A stretch of 64,000 nt of DNA from Bacteroidales bacterium (GCA_009777095.1 WRMN01000003.1:62001-126000), one strand, 5' to 3'; counted from the stretch's first letter, positions 36,630-63,575 are shown. Numbers and translations: made by a program. The notes: generated from the sequence alone by a model not told the origin.

Positions 36630-36700
36630 TGACCTATGGTGTAATGGTAGCACTACAGATTTTGGTTCTGTCTGTCTAGGTTCGAATCCTGGTAGGTCAA
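36630..36700 (+). tRNA. tRNA-Gln (anticodon TTG)
   Basis: TGACCTA...TAGGTCA acceptor stem; anticodon loop TTTTGGT within acaga/tctgt stem; T-arm GGTTCGAATCC. Confidence 0.95.
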
Positions 36701-36704
36701 CAAA
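36693..36704. repeat. Putative att-like direct repeat, tRNA 3'-end copy (taggtcaacaaa)
   Basis: Identical 12-mer recurs at 38175..38186. Confidence 0.45.
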
Positions 36705-36780
36705 AAACGCATTAAAAAAACCCGCACGACTCAGTATGCGGGGCAGTGTAATAATAAAACACAATAAATGTGCTTATCCC

Positions 36781-37041
36781 TTAAACATCTATAGCCTGTG
36801 CTGCATTGCGAACACGCTCAGAAAAATCAAAAAGCGCATTTCTCAATTGCGTTTTCTCAGCCAATGTAAAACTTCCCTCACCGCCGTTTCCATCTACTCC
36901 GCGCAGTTTATTATAAAGCCAACTGGGAGACTTGTCGGAAAAGTAGCGCTGAGATATTTTAGACCACGTAATATCTAATACGACATCTTCTATTAGATAC
37001 ATCATGCTCGTCTTTTTTAGTGTTTTTACTTGTGTTTCCAT
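36781..37041 (-). CDS. DUF5053-family protein
   Basis: DITWSKISQRYFSDKSPSWLYNKLRGVDGNGGEGSFTLAEKTQLRNALFDFSERVRNAA. Confidence 0.75.
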   Translation of the reverse strand: METQVKTLKKTSMMYLIEDVVLDITWSKISQRYFSDKSPSWLYNKLRGVDGNGGEGSFTLAEKTQLRNALFDFSERVRNAAQAIDV

Positions 37042-37096
37042 ATTTTCTTATGTTTTTGTTTAAACAAGCCCCACCAACTTTGGGCGGCTTCTGTTT

Positions 37097-37243
37097 TTAA
37101 TTTTCTTTGATTAGTAGTTGCTCGAACAGGTCTCTGACGTATAGCTCAAGGTCTAAGAAACGTCTGCCTTTTAGCAGTTGGATAATTCTGATACTCTCTA
37201 TCAGTTCTTTTTCCTTTTCCGTTAGTTTAATTCTCTTTTTCAT
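37097..37243 (-). CDS. Small hypothetical protein (48 aa), same operon as DUF5053 gene
   Basis: Read from sequence: MKKRIKLTEKEKELIESIRIIQLLKGRRFLDLELYVRDLFEQLLIKEN*; promoter TAGTACCTTTG upstream. Confidence 0.55.
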   Translation of the reverse strand: MKKRIKLTEKEKELIESIRIIQLLKGRRFLDLELYVRDLFEQLLIKEN

Positions 37244-37267
37244 TGTTATTTATTACTGCACAAAGGT

Positions 37268-37285
37268 ACTATAAATTTTTATAGT
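37268..37285. promoter_or_regulatory. Operator-like palindrome between divergent genes
   Basis: actataaatttttatagt: 8-bp arms around a 2-nt centre, next to the minus-strand -7 element (TAGTACCTTTG). Confidence 0.5.
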
Positions 37286-37341
37286 ATGCAAATACTTTCG
37301 CTAAAAGTTATCCACAATTTGAAAAATAGTTTGAATCGCCG

Positions 37342-38148
37342 ATGGCGGAATATCAACGCAATCTCTTGAAAAACAATAGGTTTTTTATTTTTAGTACGAA
37401 AAAAGGAATATGTTGTTATGCACAAACACATAGTGATTTTCAAGCCGATTTCGCGCAATTTCGATTTAAGCTGCCAAGCGGCAAAATAGTAATTATGTCA
37501 CAGGATTTTATACTGCAAAATTATACTTCCGATTACATAAGCAACAGTTATATCTACAGTGACAACGTCCAAGTATTCATAGACAAAAACGGGAAAATGT
37601 ATATTTTCACTATGTTTAAAAATGCCGATAATAATCATTTTTCTTTTGCTATTTTACGTATAGATTTGGGAGATAATCAATTACAATATACAAAAGTAGT
37701 CGAAAAAGAGGTACCGAATACGATAGTGCATAGTCCAGTTGTTGGAGAATTGTTGGTTAATCCCAAAAGAGGCGTTGTTATGTGCGGGTTTTATGACTCT
37801 TACGATAATATAGTAGGAATTCTTGAATTTGATGGAAGCAATATTCAATATATTTTTACGGAAAACGATTTTCGTTTTATCACCAATTTTACCTCTAATT
37901 ATTTGATAAATACATACAATAGCCGAGCACTGAATTTGAATAATTACCAAGAAACAAATATTCAAACCGACTCTCGATACGATGTAAGAGAATACAGTTT
38001 TTCGAGATATAGCGATTACTATAGTTGCAAGGCTCTCGAATATGAAACGGGCAGAATTGGTATTATCGAATGTTCCGTTACAGGTGGTATCTTGGGCTTC
38101 ACACCAATTGACGATGGCGAAAATATTACGTTAAGCAGGATTAATTAA
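37342..38148 (+). CDS. Hypothetical protein, 268 aa, no recognised family
   Basis: Long open frame in an island-like interval between tRNA-Gln and pbpC; beta-rich repeating character. Confidence 0.6.
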   Translation: MAEYQRNLLKNNRFFIFSTKKGICCYAQTHSDFQADFAQFRFKLPSGKIVIMSQDFILQNYTSDYISNSYIYSDNVQVFIDKNGKMYIFTMFKNADNNHFSFAILRIDLGDNQLQYTKVVEKEVPNTIVHSPVVGELLVNPKRGVVMCGFYDSYDNIVGILEFDGSNIQYIFTENDFRFITNFTSNYLINTYNSRALNLNNYQETNIQTDSRYDVREYSFSRYSDYYSCKALEYETGRIGIIECSVTGGILGFTPIDDGENITLSRIN

Positions 38149-38174
38149 AGCGGAGTATCAACCGTTTGAACCGA

Positions 38175-38186
38175 TAGGTCAACAAA
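38175..38186. repeat. Putative att-like direct repeat, distal copy (taggtcaacaaa)
   Basis: 12/12 match to the tRNA-Gln 3' end plus 5 nt, directly abutting the pbpC stop codon. Confidence 0.45.
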
Positions 38187-40592
38187 TCACTCCTCCACCG
38201 TAAAATGTCCGGTAATGCTGTTGCCCTCATCGTCAACTAAGGTAAGGACGTGGCGGCCGGGGGAAGGAATTAACGGAAGTTGATGTTGGCTGGTAGTGCT
38301 GCCGATATACGCCTTGTCTAAGTGCCAATAAATCGTTGCAGCCGCCCGCCGATGCACTGCCTGCAAAATCATTCGGCCTATCGAACCGTCTAACTGCTTG
38401 GTCAGCACAATGCGGAAACCATTCTGCGGATACAGCAATTCCATGCTCCGCTGTGCAGCCGACTGCAAGCAGTCGGGGTGTACCGACGGCAGCTGCCTGT
38501 AGGAGTGACGCTTCGTTTTATAAAAATACTCCTGCGCAGGCGGCAGCACAAACCACGACTGAACAGTCATCATGTAAGGGTCTTCGCACTCGCTGGTTAC
38601 CCTGTACTTGCCTGTACGGTCTAAATGCACCTGAATATGATAGGGGCAGGGACGGCTTTCCAAGGCGGTATTCAGAATCCACGCCGTATCCGCATCGGCG
38701 CACAGGGAAGTTGCGCGGTGTCCGCTTTGGCGGCACAGCAACACTTGGGTCATCTCGTCGTAAGGCTGTCGGAACCAGCCTGTGGGCGGCAGTAAATTAA
38801 AGAGGTCGAAAAGCACAGGCGCGGCGGCAGTTACACCTGTGAGCATGGGACGTCCCTCTCCTGAGGCATTGCCTACCCATACGCCCACCGTGTAGTTCGG
38901 CGTAGTTCCTACAGCCCAGGCATCGCGGTTGCCGTAGCTGGTGCCTGTTTTCCAAGCCACCTTGCGCGATGAGGGGAAACGCCGCCACTCCTCCTCGCCC
39001 TCCGGACGGTTGACCTCTGCTAAAGCGTTCAATACCTGCCAGCAGGCCGCAGCGCTTAGCGCTGCATCGGAGGTGGGTTTATAATCAACAGGCAGCCATG
39101 AGGAGGTATCTTTCAAATTAATAACAGGCATTTGCCAATCCGAGACGCTGTACTGCCCGCTACGTGAAGCAAAGCGGTTGACCGTGCGCGCCATAGCGGC
39201 ATAAGCATTCGTTACGTCCCAAAGCGTAACCTCCGCTCCGCCCAGTATCAACGACAAGCCATAGTGCGAAGGCTCATATATAATGGTCGAAAAGCCCATC
39301 TTCCGCAGTAAAACATGAAAACGTTCTACGGTATAGTCCTGCAACAACAACACCGCAGGAATATTCAGCGAGCGCGCCAGCGCGGCATGTGCTTCTACTG
39401 CGCCGTCGTATGTTTTGCTGTAATTCTGCGGCACAAAGCCGTTAATGTAGGTAGGGACGTCAGACAAGAGCATGGACGGCAAGAGCGTACCCTCGTCGAG
39501 CATAGCCGCATAGAGGAAAGGCTTAATAATGCTGCCGGTACTTCGGGGCGCCGCGATGACGTCAACCTTTTCGCCTTGCTCGTTATTGGCGCGGTCGGTA
39601 ACATTTCCCACGTAGGCCAAGACCCTGCCCGTTTCGTTTTCCAAGATAACAGCAGCCACATTGTTTACCTTGTTCCCGCTCTGATGCAAGGCATGGCGGT
39701 TGACAACTTCCACCGCTCTCTGTTGCAAATGGTAACGAATGGTAGTAATGATTTCTTCGCCTCTATTGGTTTGCGCCAAGCGTTCCAAGAGGTGCGGCGC
39801 ATCGGCGGGCAAAGGCAGGGGTTTGTCGGGCAGTGGTTCTTCGCAGTATAGCGGCAGGTCGTCGGCGCTGAAGTAACCTTTGGCAGATAGCTTTTGCAGC
39901 AGGGCGTTCCGTTTGTTGAGCAGCTGTTCGCGGTTGCGCCCAGGGTGAATCAGCGAGGGCGTATTCGGCAGCACCGCCAGCATGGCCGCCTCCGCCCAGG
40001 ATAAATCAGCGGCTGCACGGCCAAAATAACGCCACGCCGCGGCGTCAATGCCCACCACATTGCCCCCGAAAGGCGCATGACGGGCATACAAGGCTAAAAT
40101 TTCTTTTTTTGAATAACGAAACTCTAAACGTAGTGCCAGAACAGCCTCTATCATCTTCTCAAAAACAGTGCGCGACTTGCCTTTACGCATCAGGCGCACG
40201 GTTTGCATGGAGATAGTGCTACCGCCTTCCACTATCTTTCCCTTTTGGACATTCTTCCACAAAGCGCGGCCAACAGCTATAGGGTCAATTCCGAGGTGAT
40301 AATAAAAACGTCTATCTTCAAAAGCTACCAACGCTTTGGCATATTTATCGGGCAGCGTACCGAAAGCGGGAAAACGCCACTGTCCGTCTGCGGCGATTTT
40401 AGCGCCCAATAAATAGCCGTCGGCGCTTTCTATCACCGTTGAAGCAGGCTCCTCATCAAAGGAAGATGGCAATAGCAGGAAACCCGCAAAGAGCAGCACT
40501 CCTGCTATTATCCATCGCTTTTGCCGCTTCGACAAGCGTTTAGTAAACTTCCACCGATTGACCTGTAGTATTGGCATAGATGGTATTGTCAT
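38187..40592 (-). CDS. pbpC: Penicillin-binding protein 1C
   Basis: Glycosyltransferase-51 (FEDRRFYYHLGIDP...GGSTISMQTVRLM) plus transpeptidase (RSTGSIIKPFLY, KTGTSYGNRDAWAVG) plus PBP1C C-terminal domain. Confidence 0.95.
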   Translation of the reverse strand: MTIPSMPILQVNRWKFTKRLSKRQKRWIIAGVLLFAGFLLLPSSFDEEPASTVIESADGYLLGAKIAADGQWRFPAFGTLPDKYAKALVAFEDRRFYYHLGIDPIAVGRALWKNVQKGKIVEGGSTISMQTVRLMRKGKSRTVFEKMIEAVLALRLEFRYSKKEILALYARHAPFGGNVVGIDAAAWRYFGRAAADLSWAEAAMLAVLPNTPSLIHPGRNREQLLNKRNALLQKLSAKGYFSADDLPLYCEEPLPDKPLPLPADAPHLLERLAQTNRGEEIITTIRYHLQQRAVEVVNRHALHQSGNKVNNVAAVILENETGRVLAYVGNVTDRANNEQGEKVDVIAAPRSTGSIIKPFLYAAMLDEGTLLPSMLLSDVPTYINGFVPQNYSKTYDGAVEAHAALARSLNIPAVLLLQDYTVERFHVLLRKMGFSTIIYEPSHYGLSLILGGAEVTLWDVTNAYAAMARTVNRFASRSGQYSVSDWQMPVINLKDTSSWLPVDYKPTSDAALSAAACWQVLNALAEVNRPEGEEEWRRFPSSRKVAWKTGTSYGNRDAWAVGTTPNYTVGVWVGNASGEGRPMLTGVTAAAPVLFDLFNLLPPTGWFRQPYDEMTQVLLCRQSGHRATSLCADADTAWILNTALESRPCPYHIQVHLDRTGKYRVTSECEDPYMMTVQSWFVLPPAQEYFYKTKRHSYRQLPSVHPDCLQSAAQRSMELLYPQNGFRIVLTKQLDGSIGRMILQAVHRRAAATIYWHLDKAYIGSTTSQHQLPLIPSPGRHVLTLVDDEGNSITGHFTVEE

Positions 40593-60319: not shown

Positions 60320-61051
60320 ATGAAAACAATTGAACCTCATTCTGTCACATGGCTCAATACGGTTGATTCCACAAACAGCGAAGCAGCCCGCCATTCCGCA
60401 ACAGCCGCTGATTTAGAGGTATGGGCTGCCGTTTTTCAGCAAGTCGGCCGCGGTCAGCAAGAAAATCGCTGGGAAAGCGAGGCAGGCAAGAATCTCTTGT
60501 TTTCCATATTTTTACGTCCCAAGCTCCTATTGGCCGAAAAACAATTTTTACTCTCGCAATTGGTCTCTATCGCGCTTTGCGACTGTCTGCAAAAAGAAGG
60601 AGTGAAAGCTGTAATTAAGTGGCCGAATGATATTTATGTAAATAAAAAAAAGATTGCAGGTATCCTGATTGAACATCATATTTCAGGCGCATATATCTCA
60701 TCAAGCATTGCAGGAATAGGCCTGAATGTTAACCAACAGGTTTTTCACACTGCCCCTAATCCTACCTCCATGTTTTTGGAGACTAAGCGTTTGTTCGACC
60801 TGCCTTTATTGTTGCAAAAAATAATAAATAATATAAAAACATACTATCTATCCATAGATGCTGAAAAACTACAAGAGAGATACCTTTCTTATTTGCTAAA
60901 CTACAAAAAATGGGCTACTTACATAAATTCTGACGGAAAGATTTTCAAGGCTAAAATTATAGATGTATGTTCTACGGGAGAATTAAGTTTAATCAATAAG
61001 ATGGGTGATATTCTGCATTTTGCTTTTAAAGAAATAAGTCTGTGTCAATAA
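60320..61051 (+). CDS. birA: Biotin--[acetyl-CoA-carboxylase] ligase
   Basis: LNTVDSTNSEAARH, VGRGQQENRWESEAGKNLLFS, IKWPNDIYVNKKKIAGILIE. Confidence 0.94.
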   Translation: MKTIEPHSVTWLNTVDSTNSEAARHSATAADLEVWAAVFQQVGRGQQENRWESEAGKNLLFSIFLRPKLLLAEKQFLLSQLVSIALCDCLQKEGVKAVIKWPNDIYVNKKKIAGILIEHHISGAYISSSIAGIGLNVNQQVFHTAPNPTSMFLETKRLFDLPLLLQKIINNIKTYYLSIDAEKLQERYLSYLLNYKKWATYINSDGKIFKAKIIDVCSTGELSLINKMGDILHFAFKEISLCQ

Positions 61052-61100
61052 ATAAAAAGAAAGCCTATTGTTTTTACCGAAAAGAATATCTACCTTTGCA

Positions 61101-61293
61101 GTGCCATTGAAGGAATAAGGTGGCAATCTCTTGGACGGATTATTATAGGTGTGTTACTTCGGGTTTAATTTCTACATACTAATGATGTTAGATTAAATCC
61201 CAAAACCCGTCGAGCTTGAAGAAACTTCGGTTTTTTCGGTGAGATGCCGCCTTTTTTTGAGAGCTTGTTCAATTTTTTGAACAAGCTTTTTTT
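61101..61293 (+). ncRNA. 6S-like structured small RNA (candidate ssrS)
   Basis: Promoter TACCTTTGC (61091-61099); closing stem aaggtggcaatctc/gagatgccgcctt, large internal bubble, apical imperfect hairpin gggtttaat.../attaaatccc, then intrinsic terminator. Confidence 0.55.
61262..61293 (+). terminator. Intrinsic terminator
   Basis: agcttgttcaa-tttt-ttgaacaagct followed by a T tract; 11-bp perfect stem. Confidence 0.85.
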
Positions 61294-61443
61294 ATGGGCG
61301 TTTTTAATAATTAAATTGCTGGTAGGTAAATAGATAGATGAAATTTTGTAAATAAATTATTTTTTCAATCATTTATTTTTGTAATTTTGCAGAAAGATTA
61401 TTAAAAAGTCCGAGCAGGGAACGGACGTAAAACTAACAATAAG

Positions 61444-62223
61444 ATGAGGAAAATAATTTTATCTTTGGCACTATGTGTAAATTTCGCTATTGGCTATGCA
61501 CAAAGCGAAAACGGTATTATTCCATTGGTTATGCACAATGCACAGAATGGAAAAACCTATTTGGGTGAATGGATTTATGTTGATGCGCATAACAATTTTG
61601 TTGGCGCCTCTTTTGCCCCATTAGGAGAAGTTGATAGTATCAGCCTAAAAACTGATATTCCCACTATTGGGTGGACAAACAAAATTGCCGCCGCTCCACA
61701 AACAGGAATAGCGGCTTATTTTAAGGGAAGGTACTACATTATTTACGTAGATAACTATGTAGTAAGTATCAGAAATGCAATTATGGGCGTGAGAATAAGA
61801 TACAGGCATTTGACTGAAAATATAGCAAACAGTATAATTGCAGATAGTAAACAGCCTACGATTTTTATAGCTGATGATGAGAATACTTTCGGTAAAAGCA
61901 GCAGCATTATTGCGGATAAAGTAAAAACAGAACTTGCCAAAAACGGTTATTCATTAACGCAAAATGCTGTGCAAAGCCATTATCAACTCTATATTAAGGC
62001 AAGCACACGGCAAATTAACAGCGACAATAATTTTAACTATTGCTATGCTGATATAACCGTAGAGTTGTTTAATACATTGACAGGCAATAGCGAATATTTT
62101 GAAGATTTCTCACAAAAGGGAGTTTCCACTTCGCGCGACCGTGCTGCGCGCGAAGCGCTTACAGACGCGTCAACTGTTATAAATGAAAAAATCTTATCAT
62201 TCATACTTAAAAACAAAGAATAA
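61444..62223 (+). CDS. Hypothetical exported protein
   Basis: Signal peptide MRKIILSLALCVNFAIGYAQ; TAATG overlap with next gene. Confidence 0.7.
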   Translation: MRKIILSLALCVNFAIGYAQSENGIIPLVMHNAQNGKTYLGEWIYVDAHNNFVGASFAPLGEVDSISLKTDIPTIGWTNKIAAAPQTGIAAYFKGRYYIIYVDNYVVSIRNAIMGVRIRYRHLTENIANSIIADSKQPTIFIADDENTFGKSSSIIADKVKTELAKNGYSLTQNAVQSHYQLYIKASTRQINSDNNFNYCYADITVELFNTLTGNSEYFEDFSQKGVSTSRDRAAREALTDASTVINEKILSFILKNKE

Positions 62224-63575
62224 TGAAGAAAATAATTATCACATTGTTTGCGATAATGTGCCTTACAGCCGTATTTGGACAGGAGAAAACCAAACTTGCA
62301 GTATATGTACATGGTGATGCCAGAGAAGCAGAGAAAAAAGTAGTGGGTGCCAGAATAATTTCAACCATAGTGAAAAGTGATAAATATGCAGCAGTAGAAC
62401 GCACTGCTGATTTTCTTGCCGAACTTAGCCGAGAACAAGGTTATCAATACTCAGGAAGTGTGGACGACGGGCAAATAATAAAACTTGGTAAGCAATTCGG
62501 AGTTAAAATGGTATGCGTAGCAGATGTTGGAGGCTCTGATTTATTTGCACGTATGATAGATATAGAAACGGGTTTGGTTGCTTCAGTCAGTGGGAGGCAT
62601 GGAGTTAGTTTATCTAACTTGGACAATTTAATAAGCAATGCAAACGCTTTGATTGAAAATCTATTACAGAATGTAACAACTACTGTTGATAAGCAAAAGA
62701 TAGCCATTTATGTAACTAAAAGCAGCGACAGTTATAAAGCCAAACGTGTGAATTATCAACTAATAGAAAATATTACGAACACAGGAGTATTTATAACAGT
62801 AGATAGAACTTCTGATTTTCTTGCTGAACTCAAGTATCAAGGCTCCGGTAATGTAGATGATAGGCAATTAAGCCGTTTAGGAAAACAATTTGGAGTAAAC
62901 TTAGTTTGCGTAATTGATATTACAAGCATAGGGAATGATACCTACACAACGGTACGCATTATAAATGTCGAAACAGGAATGATTATTGCTACGTCTGAGA
63001 AAAAAGGATGGAATAGCTACAGGGTATCTTCAGATCATAGAAATGAACAATATGTAACATGGAGCGGAGAATATAGTTATTATAGCGAGACATGGGAGAA
63101 TTATTATTACCTAAATGTATTTAACAAAAATCTTGATGAGATAACAGCAGAACTTATGCAACAACTTGGAGTTTATGTTTGTATTAAAAAAGACCAAAGA
63201 AAAAGTCAATTTGAATGCTGTACTGGTTTAACAGAATACGATGGTTTTTGCAGAGACTTTAGCGGTGGCATGGCTGCTTATTGGGTAAAACACGATTTGG
63301 GAGTAGAAGTGATGTATAAAGATATTACAGTTACAGGGAAAGATGTAAAAAATAAGAAAAATGCCCTTTGCCCCGTAGGCTGGCGCCTTCCTACTTCTGC
63401 AGAATTTAAAAAAATGGATAAAGTAAAAGGATTTAATATTAATCAAAACAGATACATAACTTTCGATTCAAGGGCTAAAGGTAGATATATACAGAGAAGT
63501 TCTTCCGGCAGCTATTACTACTACTACAAGGTACAGGTGGGGGAAGATTATCGTGTTAGATGTGTAAAAGATTGA
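62223..63575 (+). CDS. Exported protein with two tandem CsgG-like domains and C-terminal FISUMP-like domain
   Basis: Internal duplication: AAVERTADFLAELSREQGYQYSGSVDDGQIIKLGKQFGVKMVCVADV vs ITVDRTSDFLAELKYQGSGNVDDRQLSRLGKQFGVNLVCVIDI; C-term CPVGWRLPTSAEFKKM...YRVRCVKD. Confidence 0.75.
   Translation: MKKIIITLFAIMCLTAVFGQEKTKLAVYVHGDAREAEKKVVGARIISTIVKSDKYAAVERTADFLAELSREQGYQYSGSVDDGQIIKLGKQFGVKMVCVADVGGSDLFARMIDIETGLVASVSGRHGVSLSNLDNLISNANALIENLLQNVTTTVDKQKIAIYVTKSSDSYKAKRVNYQLIENITNTGVFITVDRTSDFLAELKYQGSGNVDDRQLSRLGKQFGVNLVCVIDITSIGNDTYTTVRIINVETGMIIATSEKKGWNSYRVSSDHRNEQYVTWSGEYSYYSETWENYYYLNVFNKNLDEITAELMQQLGVYVCIKKDQRKSQFECCTGLTEYDGFCRDFSGGMAAYWVKHDLGVEVMYKDITVTGKDVKNKKNALCPVGWRLPTSAEFKKMDKVKGFNINQNRYITFDSRAKGRYIQRSSSGSYYYYYKVQVGEDYRVRCVKD

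Follow-up and report, generated by a model that had tools for sequence, protein, structure and literature searches.

A window of 64,000 nucleotides from a gut Bacteroidales genome (GCA_009777095.1, WRMN01000003.1:62001-126000; 'the window' here means this whole stretch) contains 1.5 kb of foreign DNA inserted in a tRNA-Gln gene, with the same 12 bp at both ends. The region from 36693 to 38186 is probably a 1.48-kb non-autonomous integrative element, or a stranded remnant of one, in the 3′ end of tRNA-Gln, and it is best read as a tRNA-integrated element resembling the cis-mobilizable elements (CIMEs) and derived from an integrase-bearing one. Its cargo comprises three genes, DUF5053, orf48 and orf268, and islands with the orf48-DUF5053 pair, bounded by repeats and without an integrase, occur at three different tRNA genes across two genera. 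The boundaries of the island, with attachment (att)-like repeats, are the following:

36630..36701, plus strand: tRNA-Gln(ttg), the target gene, intact (ARAGORN)
36693..36704, plus strand: left 12-mer TAGGTCAACAAA, attL-like, comprising the 3′ strand of the acceptor stem and downstream bases (sequence and genome search)
38175..38186, plus strand: right 12-mer TAGGTCAACAAA, attR-like, abutting pbpC (sequence, genome search and direct repeat test)

An initial annotation of this DNA had placed one copy of the 12-mer in the tRNA-Gln 3′ end and the other next to the pbpC stop codon, and both positions were confirmed, the stop codon starting at 38187, directly after the right copy. A search of the 2.05-Mb genome (46 contigs) returned exactly two copies of TAGGTCAACAAA, both at this locus; about 0.34 copies per genome would be expected by chance (order-2 Markov estimate), and the reversed sequence, used as a control, had 0 copies in the same genome. 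The chance that any tRNA-tail 12-mer recurs within 2 kb downstream was estimated in the same way at about 0.005. When the 2 kb beyond DUF5053 were tested directly, the best tRNA-end match scored 12 against a null maximum of 10.5 (0/60). The tRNA 3′ ends of the genus, represented by three draft genomes that are all fragmented (G000, the window genome; G001; and G002, a sibling species whose public record is Prevotellaceae MAG (metagenome-assembled genome) Cus372_bin5), were also scanned in the fetched regions only, with tandem tRNA genes set aside, and the highest values were those of the G002 tRNA-Arg (17), the window tRNA-Gln (12) and, marginally, the G000 tRNA-Arg (11.5). The proposal that a degraded T-arm lies beside the right copy fared less well, as GTTTGAACCGA and GTTCGAATCCTGG align only with gaps and lend it little support. 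In composition the island stands out as AT-rich, with a GC content of 0.348 compared with 0.434 for the window and 0.539 for pbpC.

Between the repeats, the following features were called:

36721..36742, minus strand: terminator-like stem-loop CCCGCA..TGCGGG with a T run on the minus strand, after DUF5053 (read from the sequence)
36781..37041, minus strand: DUF5053 gene, 86 aa (PF16476, E 4.6e-23; structural model with a predicted local distance difference test score, pLDDT, of 87)
37097..37243, minus strand: orf48, a 48-aa open reading frame (ORF) conserved upstream of DUF5053 (ORF call; similar ORFs at other loci)
37342..38148, plus strand: orf268, an orphan cargo ORF with an alternative start near 37495 (ORF call; no Pfam match)

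This content, a DUF5053 gene, a 48-aa ORF and a 268-aa orphan without an integrase, had been described in the initial annotation and was borne out by the ORF calls and by searches with PF16476 and PF00589. The DUF5053 product scores 81.1 bits against a curated family cut-off of 26.6 and thus belongs to PF16476, and the PF00589 matches of the genome all lie elsewhere, with no integrase inside the island. On contig C5 of the same genome, a tyrosine recombinase gene pair is present twice, about 8.4 kb apart (60812-62229 and 69179-70596), with identical search scores and the same fetched translations. The third gene, orf268, has a frame of 268 aa that far exceeds those of shuffled island DNA (longest 133 in 300 shuffles), a coding-like codon use and a GC content (0.33) well under that of its neighbours. 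Searches of Pfam, NCBIfam, PADLOC and PDB gave no noteworthy match to it, and its structure, predicted without an alignment, had a pLDDT of 49, too low for use. Nor were the same three genes found at this place in all close relatives, orf268 having no convincing relative among the genomes, viral contigs or phages searched; an order-level match in a further genome (G639, E 2.4e-6) carries five stops in frame and was rejected.

The gene pair links this locus to islands with longer repeats. In G002, a DUF5053 gene lies 0.56 kb from tRNA-Arg(acg), and the 17-bp tRNA 3′ end AATCCTGTCGGAGTCAC recurs 994 bp downstream; this 0.99-kb island contains an orf48 homologue and DUF5053, the latter followed by a stem very similar to that of the window island, and no integrase was found in it. 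Phocaeicola oris harbours an island of 2161 bp at tRNA-Met, bounded by a 16-bp repeat TCTTGCCTCCGCAACA, in which DUF5053 and an orf48 homologue are accompanied by hicA (PF07927) and a weakly hicB-like gene, without an integrase. Altogether, four integrase-less islands of 1-2.2 kb have both ends. The orf48-DUF5053 pair belongs to mobile DNA, and the related islands with the same pair at other tRNA genes point to a mobile element, small and either dependent or stranded, and not to a random intergenic gap. No significant second tRNA-end copy was detected in the 2 kb tested at twelve other tRNA-adjacent DUF5053 loci (L142, L148, L162, L190, L197, L212, L186, L165, L211, L188, L140 and L151). Several TTACGG/TACGGA hexamers, like arm-type integrase sites, occur near both ends of the G002 tRNA-Arg island (contig C226, L116, 2579-3570), compared with a single hexamer of this type in the window island.

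The remaining two-ended island lies in the window genome itself, outside the window. Downstream of tRNA-Arg(acg), after rplS, a copy of the tRNA end, GGAGTCACTAAAAA, with 1 mismatch in 14, is found at about +0.98 kb and closes an integrase-less island of about 1 kb (contig C7:12023-13090, L341), which carries a DUF5678-like ORF just below the curated cut-off and an aspartyl-protease/SEC-C ORF, without DUF5053. Past the tRNA-derived core, inside the island, TAATATGTTT.ATATA is common to the right ends in G000 and G002, whose alignment scores 45 against a shuffle maximum of 36. At the tRNA-Arg site, therefore, about 1 kb of cargo differs between the two species, and the expectation of different cargo between the same repeats was realized there, but not at tRNA-Gln itself.

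DUF5053 is more broadly associated with tRNA 3′ ends. Among the loci compared (the 80 best of 198 matches in genomes and the 80 best of 93 in viral contigs), DUF5053 genes less than 4 kb from a tRNA face its 3′ end in 41 cases and its 5′ end in 2, versus 11 and 9 at 4-10 kb, although these counts are partly non-independent owing to near-copy loci and to loci with several DUF5053 genes. Integrases were sought across the loci with iterated custom profiles, with a Pfam check for chosen proteins only, and in several relatives (L117, L127, L177, L208, L221 and others) one lies between the tRNA and DUF5053. At one of these (L177), an integrase, DUF5053 and an orf48 homologue are packed into 2.2 kb at a tRNA-Gln(ttg), with an imperfect tRNA-end repeat; the start of the contig is close by, so a larger element may end here. 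Another relative (L140) has an apparently broken integrase, read from fragments, beside tRNA-Pro and DUF5053 genes. In Porphyromonas gingivalis prophages, DUF5053 is located in an accessory region in the endolysin-integrase interval, with HicAB- and MazF-like genes in one of them, and plasmids yielded no DUF5053 match. In a DUF5053 tree that is rough because of its few alignment columns, the integrase-less tRNA-linked copies are scattered, with at least 5 changes forced by well-supported branches, which implies that the integrase-less state arose repeatedly.

The orf48-DUF5053 operon shares a promoter architecture across loci, and in the window its elements are located as follows:

37289..37292, minus strand: -33 promoter element TTTG (pattern common to the operons)
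37267..37286, no strand: operator-like dyad TACTATAAATTTTTATAGTA, between the -33 and -7 elements (comparison of operons)
37261..37268, minus strand: -7 element TACCTTTG of the orf48-DUF5053 promoter (pattern common to the operons)

An orf48-like ORF is present upstream of 143 of the 220 DUF5053 genes, and the TTTG ... TAnnTTTG arrangement that precedes the pair is one which we take to be a Bacteroidota-type promoter. The operator-promoter can be summarized as TTTG, N19-20, TAnnTTTG with the dyad TAnTACGAAnnTTCGTAnTA. In 71 non-redundant operons, a dyad with a consensus near TAGTACGAAAATTCGTACTA occupies one fixed place between both promoter elements; this conserved operator dyad is new. It has 5.99 of 9 complementary positions, compared with 2.65 at TAnnTTTG control sites from those loci, and the TTG of the -33 element is present in 82% of operons versus 34% of control sites. 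Such conservation points to orf48-DUF5053 as a maintained and probably autoregulated module. Each of two P. gingivalis phage records has a single copy of the operator, at the orf48-DUF5053 operon, which argues for self-regulation rather than control of the whole phage; with no further operator in these records, a role of DUF5053 as master immunity repressor was set aside as unsupported. The protein is predicted to be almost all-helical, with a helix-turn-helix-like pair and no significant PDB or viral match to the predicted fold, and it would bind the dyad and repress its own operon. DUF5053 is a family of unknown function of which no mention was found in the literature searched. Elsewhere, orf48-DUF5053 cassettes stand in tandem arrays that repeat about every 670 bp, with long repeats between the cassettes and a promoter for each (L181, 9989-11592; also L180, L141, L151 and L210). 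At three further loci (L155, 7721/8534; L195, 9488/10298; L137, 8000/10307), exact direct repeats of 27-59 bp, away from tRNAs, flank single DUF5053 cassettes or small DUF5053 islands.

Several observations weigh against an integrated element at tRNA-Gln. No empty tRNA-Gln/pbpC site is available in the two relatives, with their contig ends and altered neighbours: the G002 contig stops within pbpC, whereas in G001 a close homologue of pbpC is lacking and tRNA-Gln(ttg), with an N gap, abuts a different gene. The window repeat is short, and its 12 is to be compared with a best control of 11.5 in the genus scan, in which only three tRNAs stand out, so that taken alone it constitutes good, but not overwhelming, evidence. 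Furthermore, the window dyad TACTATAAATTTTTATAGTA deviates from the consensus, and the right end of the tRNA-Gln island is unlike that of the tRNA-Arg islands. Finally, about 65 bp after tRNA-Arg are similar in all three species, including G001, where there is no duplicate, which leaves the exact left boundary at tRNA-Arg unsure.

Other places where an unoccupied site could lie were also considered. The tRNA-Arg of G001 lacks a duplicate, but with different genes downstream it does not qualify as a clean empty site. For P. oris, tRNA-Met was absent from the flanks of 30 of the 30 closest purA loci in a sample of the order, and no viral contig with this tRNA-Gln end was present in IMG/VR. The gene next to tRNA-Gln(ttg) in G001 overlaps the tRNA 3′ end on the opposite strand with its final codons and stop (L075, about 1037-1112), and this gene presumably resembles thiL.

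Under the CIME-like explanation, a tyrosine integrase, encoded either by a helper or by the element itself while it still had the gene, would have recombined a core including TAGGTCAACAAA with the tRNA gene, generating the repeats. Recombination would rebuild the tRNA at the left end and leave the second TAGGTCAACAAA against pbpC, and what remains would be the orf48-DUF5053 operon, with the operator dyad in its promoter, and one orphan cargo gene. The ancestor would be an integrase-bearing element of phage type, and movement today would be possible only by an integrase from elsewhere. The initial annotation had seen here the layout to be expected of a tRNA-integrated satellite, or of a remnant mobilized in trans. 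Its tRNA-integrated part gained from the longer repeats of the homologous islands at tRNA-Arg and tRNA-Met and from the clustering of DUF5053 at tRNA 3′ ends, while the satellite or trans-mobilized part stays tentative, given that the integrase was lost repeatedly, that one relative keeps a broken integrase and that a clean empty site was not found.

Whether the element can still move divides this explanation into two sub-cases, weighed as rivals for present mobility. The chances appear balanced for a dead scar, in which deletions removed the integrase and body of an integrated prophage or island and spared its ends, and DUF5053 and its neighbours persisted by chance or through a benefit to the host. 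Stranded scars are favoured by the repeated integrase loss, the broken integrase beside tRNA-Pro and the absence of an identified helper, and the location of DUF5053 near the integrase end in prophages is consistent with them; this account nonetheless calls for deletions to the left and right of one and the same gene pair, sparing both ends, in three or more lineages, and the operon and its operator are intact rather than decaying. Rather unlikely is a mini-element that kept its att ends and orf48-DUF5053, is moved by the integrases of resident phages or elements and has its cargo swapped. Movement is favoured by the repeated two-ended islands and by the exchanged cargo, with similar right ends, at one tRNA-Arg site in two species, and agrees with the intact ORFs and conserved operator, but no helper integrase was identified, a near-identical island at two sites was not found and the integrase-less copies are scattered over the DUF5053 tree. 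A chance 12-bp match flanking ordinary intergenic genes is very improbable: the repeat is indeed short and close to the best control, but its estimated chance is low, the genome holds no further copy and the content is the gene pair of islands with longer repeats at other tRNAs.

A broader proposal, and a doubtful one, is that of a Bacteroidota family of 1-2 kb integrase-less, att-ended elements, consisting of an autoregulated orf48-DUF5053 module and exchangeable cargo, which would be moved between tRNA genes by the integrases of others. If true, such elements would represent a parasite of tRNA-targeting integrases resembling miniature inverted-repeat transposable elements (MITEs). Small tRNA islands without an integrase escape island finders that search for one, and the link between gene pair, operator and tRNA 3′ end provides a handle with which to search for them across Bacteroidota, making the choice between a scar and a parasite of others' integrases testable. 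DUF5053, for its part, gains a genomic setting and a hypothesis, that of an autoregulated accessory module of tRNA-integrated elements.

Among known systems, the CIMEs of Streptococcus salivarius measure 1.2-13 kb and have kept their att sites while losing their recombination genes (PMC7563491). The window island falls within this size range, has no integrase or transfer genes, retains cargo and keeps flanking att-like sites, as do the homologous islands, and some CIMEs likewise reside at tRNA 3′ ends. CIMEs derive, however, from integrative and conjugative or integrative and mobilizable elements (ICEs and IMEs), whereas the relatives of the present module are in prophages (no ICE parent was sought directly); here, moreover, there is no tandem partner element, and one conserved gene pair is found repeatedly, together with an operator of its own. 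As in Islander-type tRNA islands (PMC4383910), one boundary is an intact tRNA gene and the opposite one a displaced fragment of the tRNA 3′ end, but the island lacks an integrase, spans 1.5 kb and has a displaced fragment of only 12 bp. Phage satellites such as phage-inducible chromosomal islands (PICIs) and phage-inducible chromosomal minimalist islands (PICMIs) are also small, chromosomal, cargo-bearing and possibly helper-dependent (PMC10803314, PMC11389934); in contrast to them, the window island has no integrase, replication or packaging gene that could be found, and no helper was identified. The P. gingivalis prophages BK068104 and BK068106 have the same kind of operator before DUF5053, which lies there in the accessory region near the integrase, but they are complete phages of 44 kb that possess integrase, capsid and tail genes. 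Hitcher elements, such as MITEs and clusters of attC sites lacking integron-integrases (CALINs), would similarly rely on a recombinase in trans (PMC11389934), whereas the window island combines tRNA-directed direct repeats with coding content instead of inverted-repeat ends or attC arrays.

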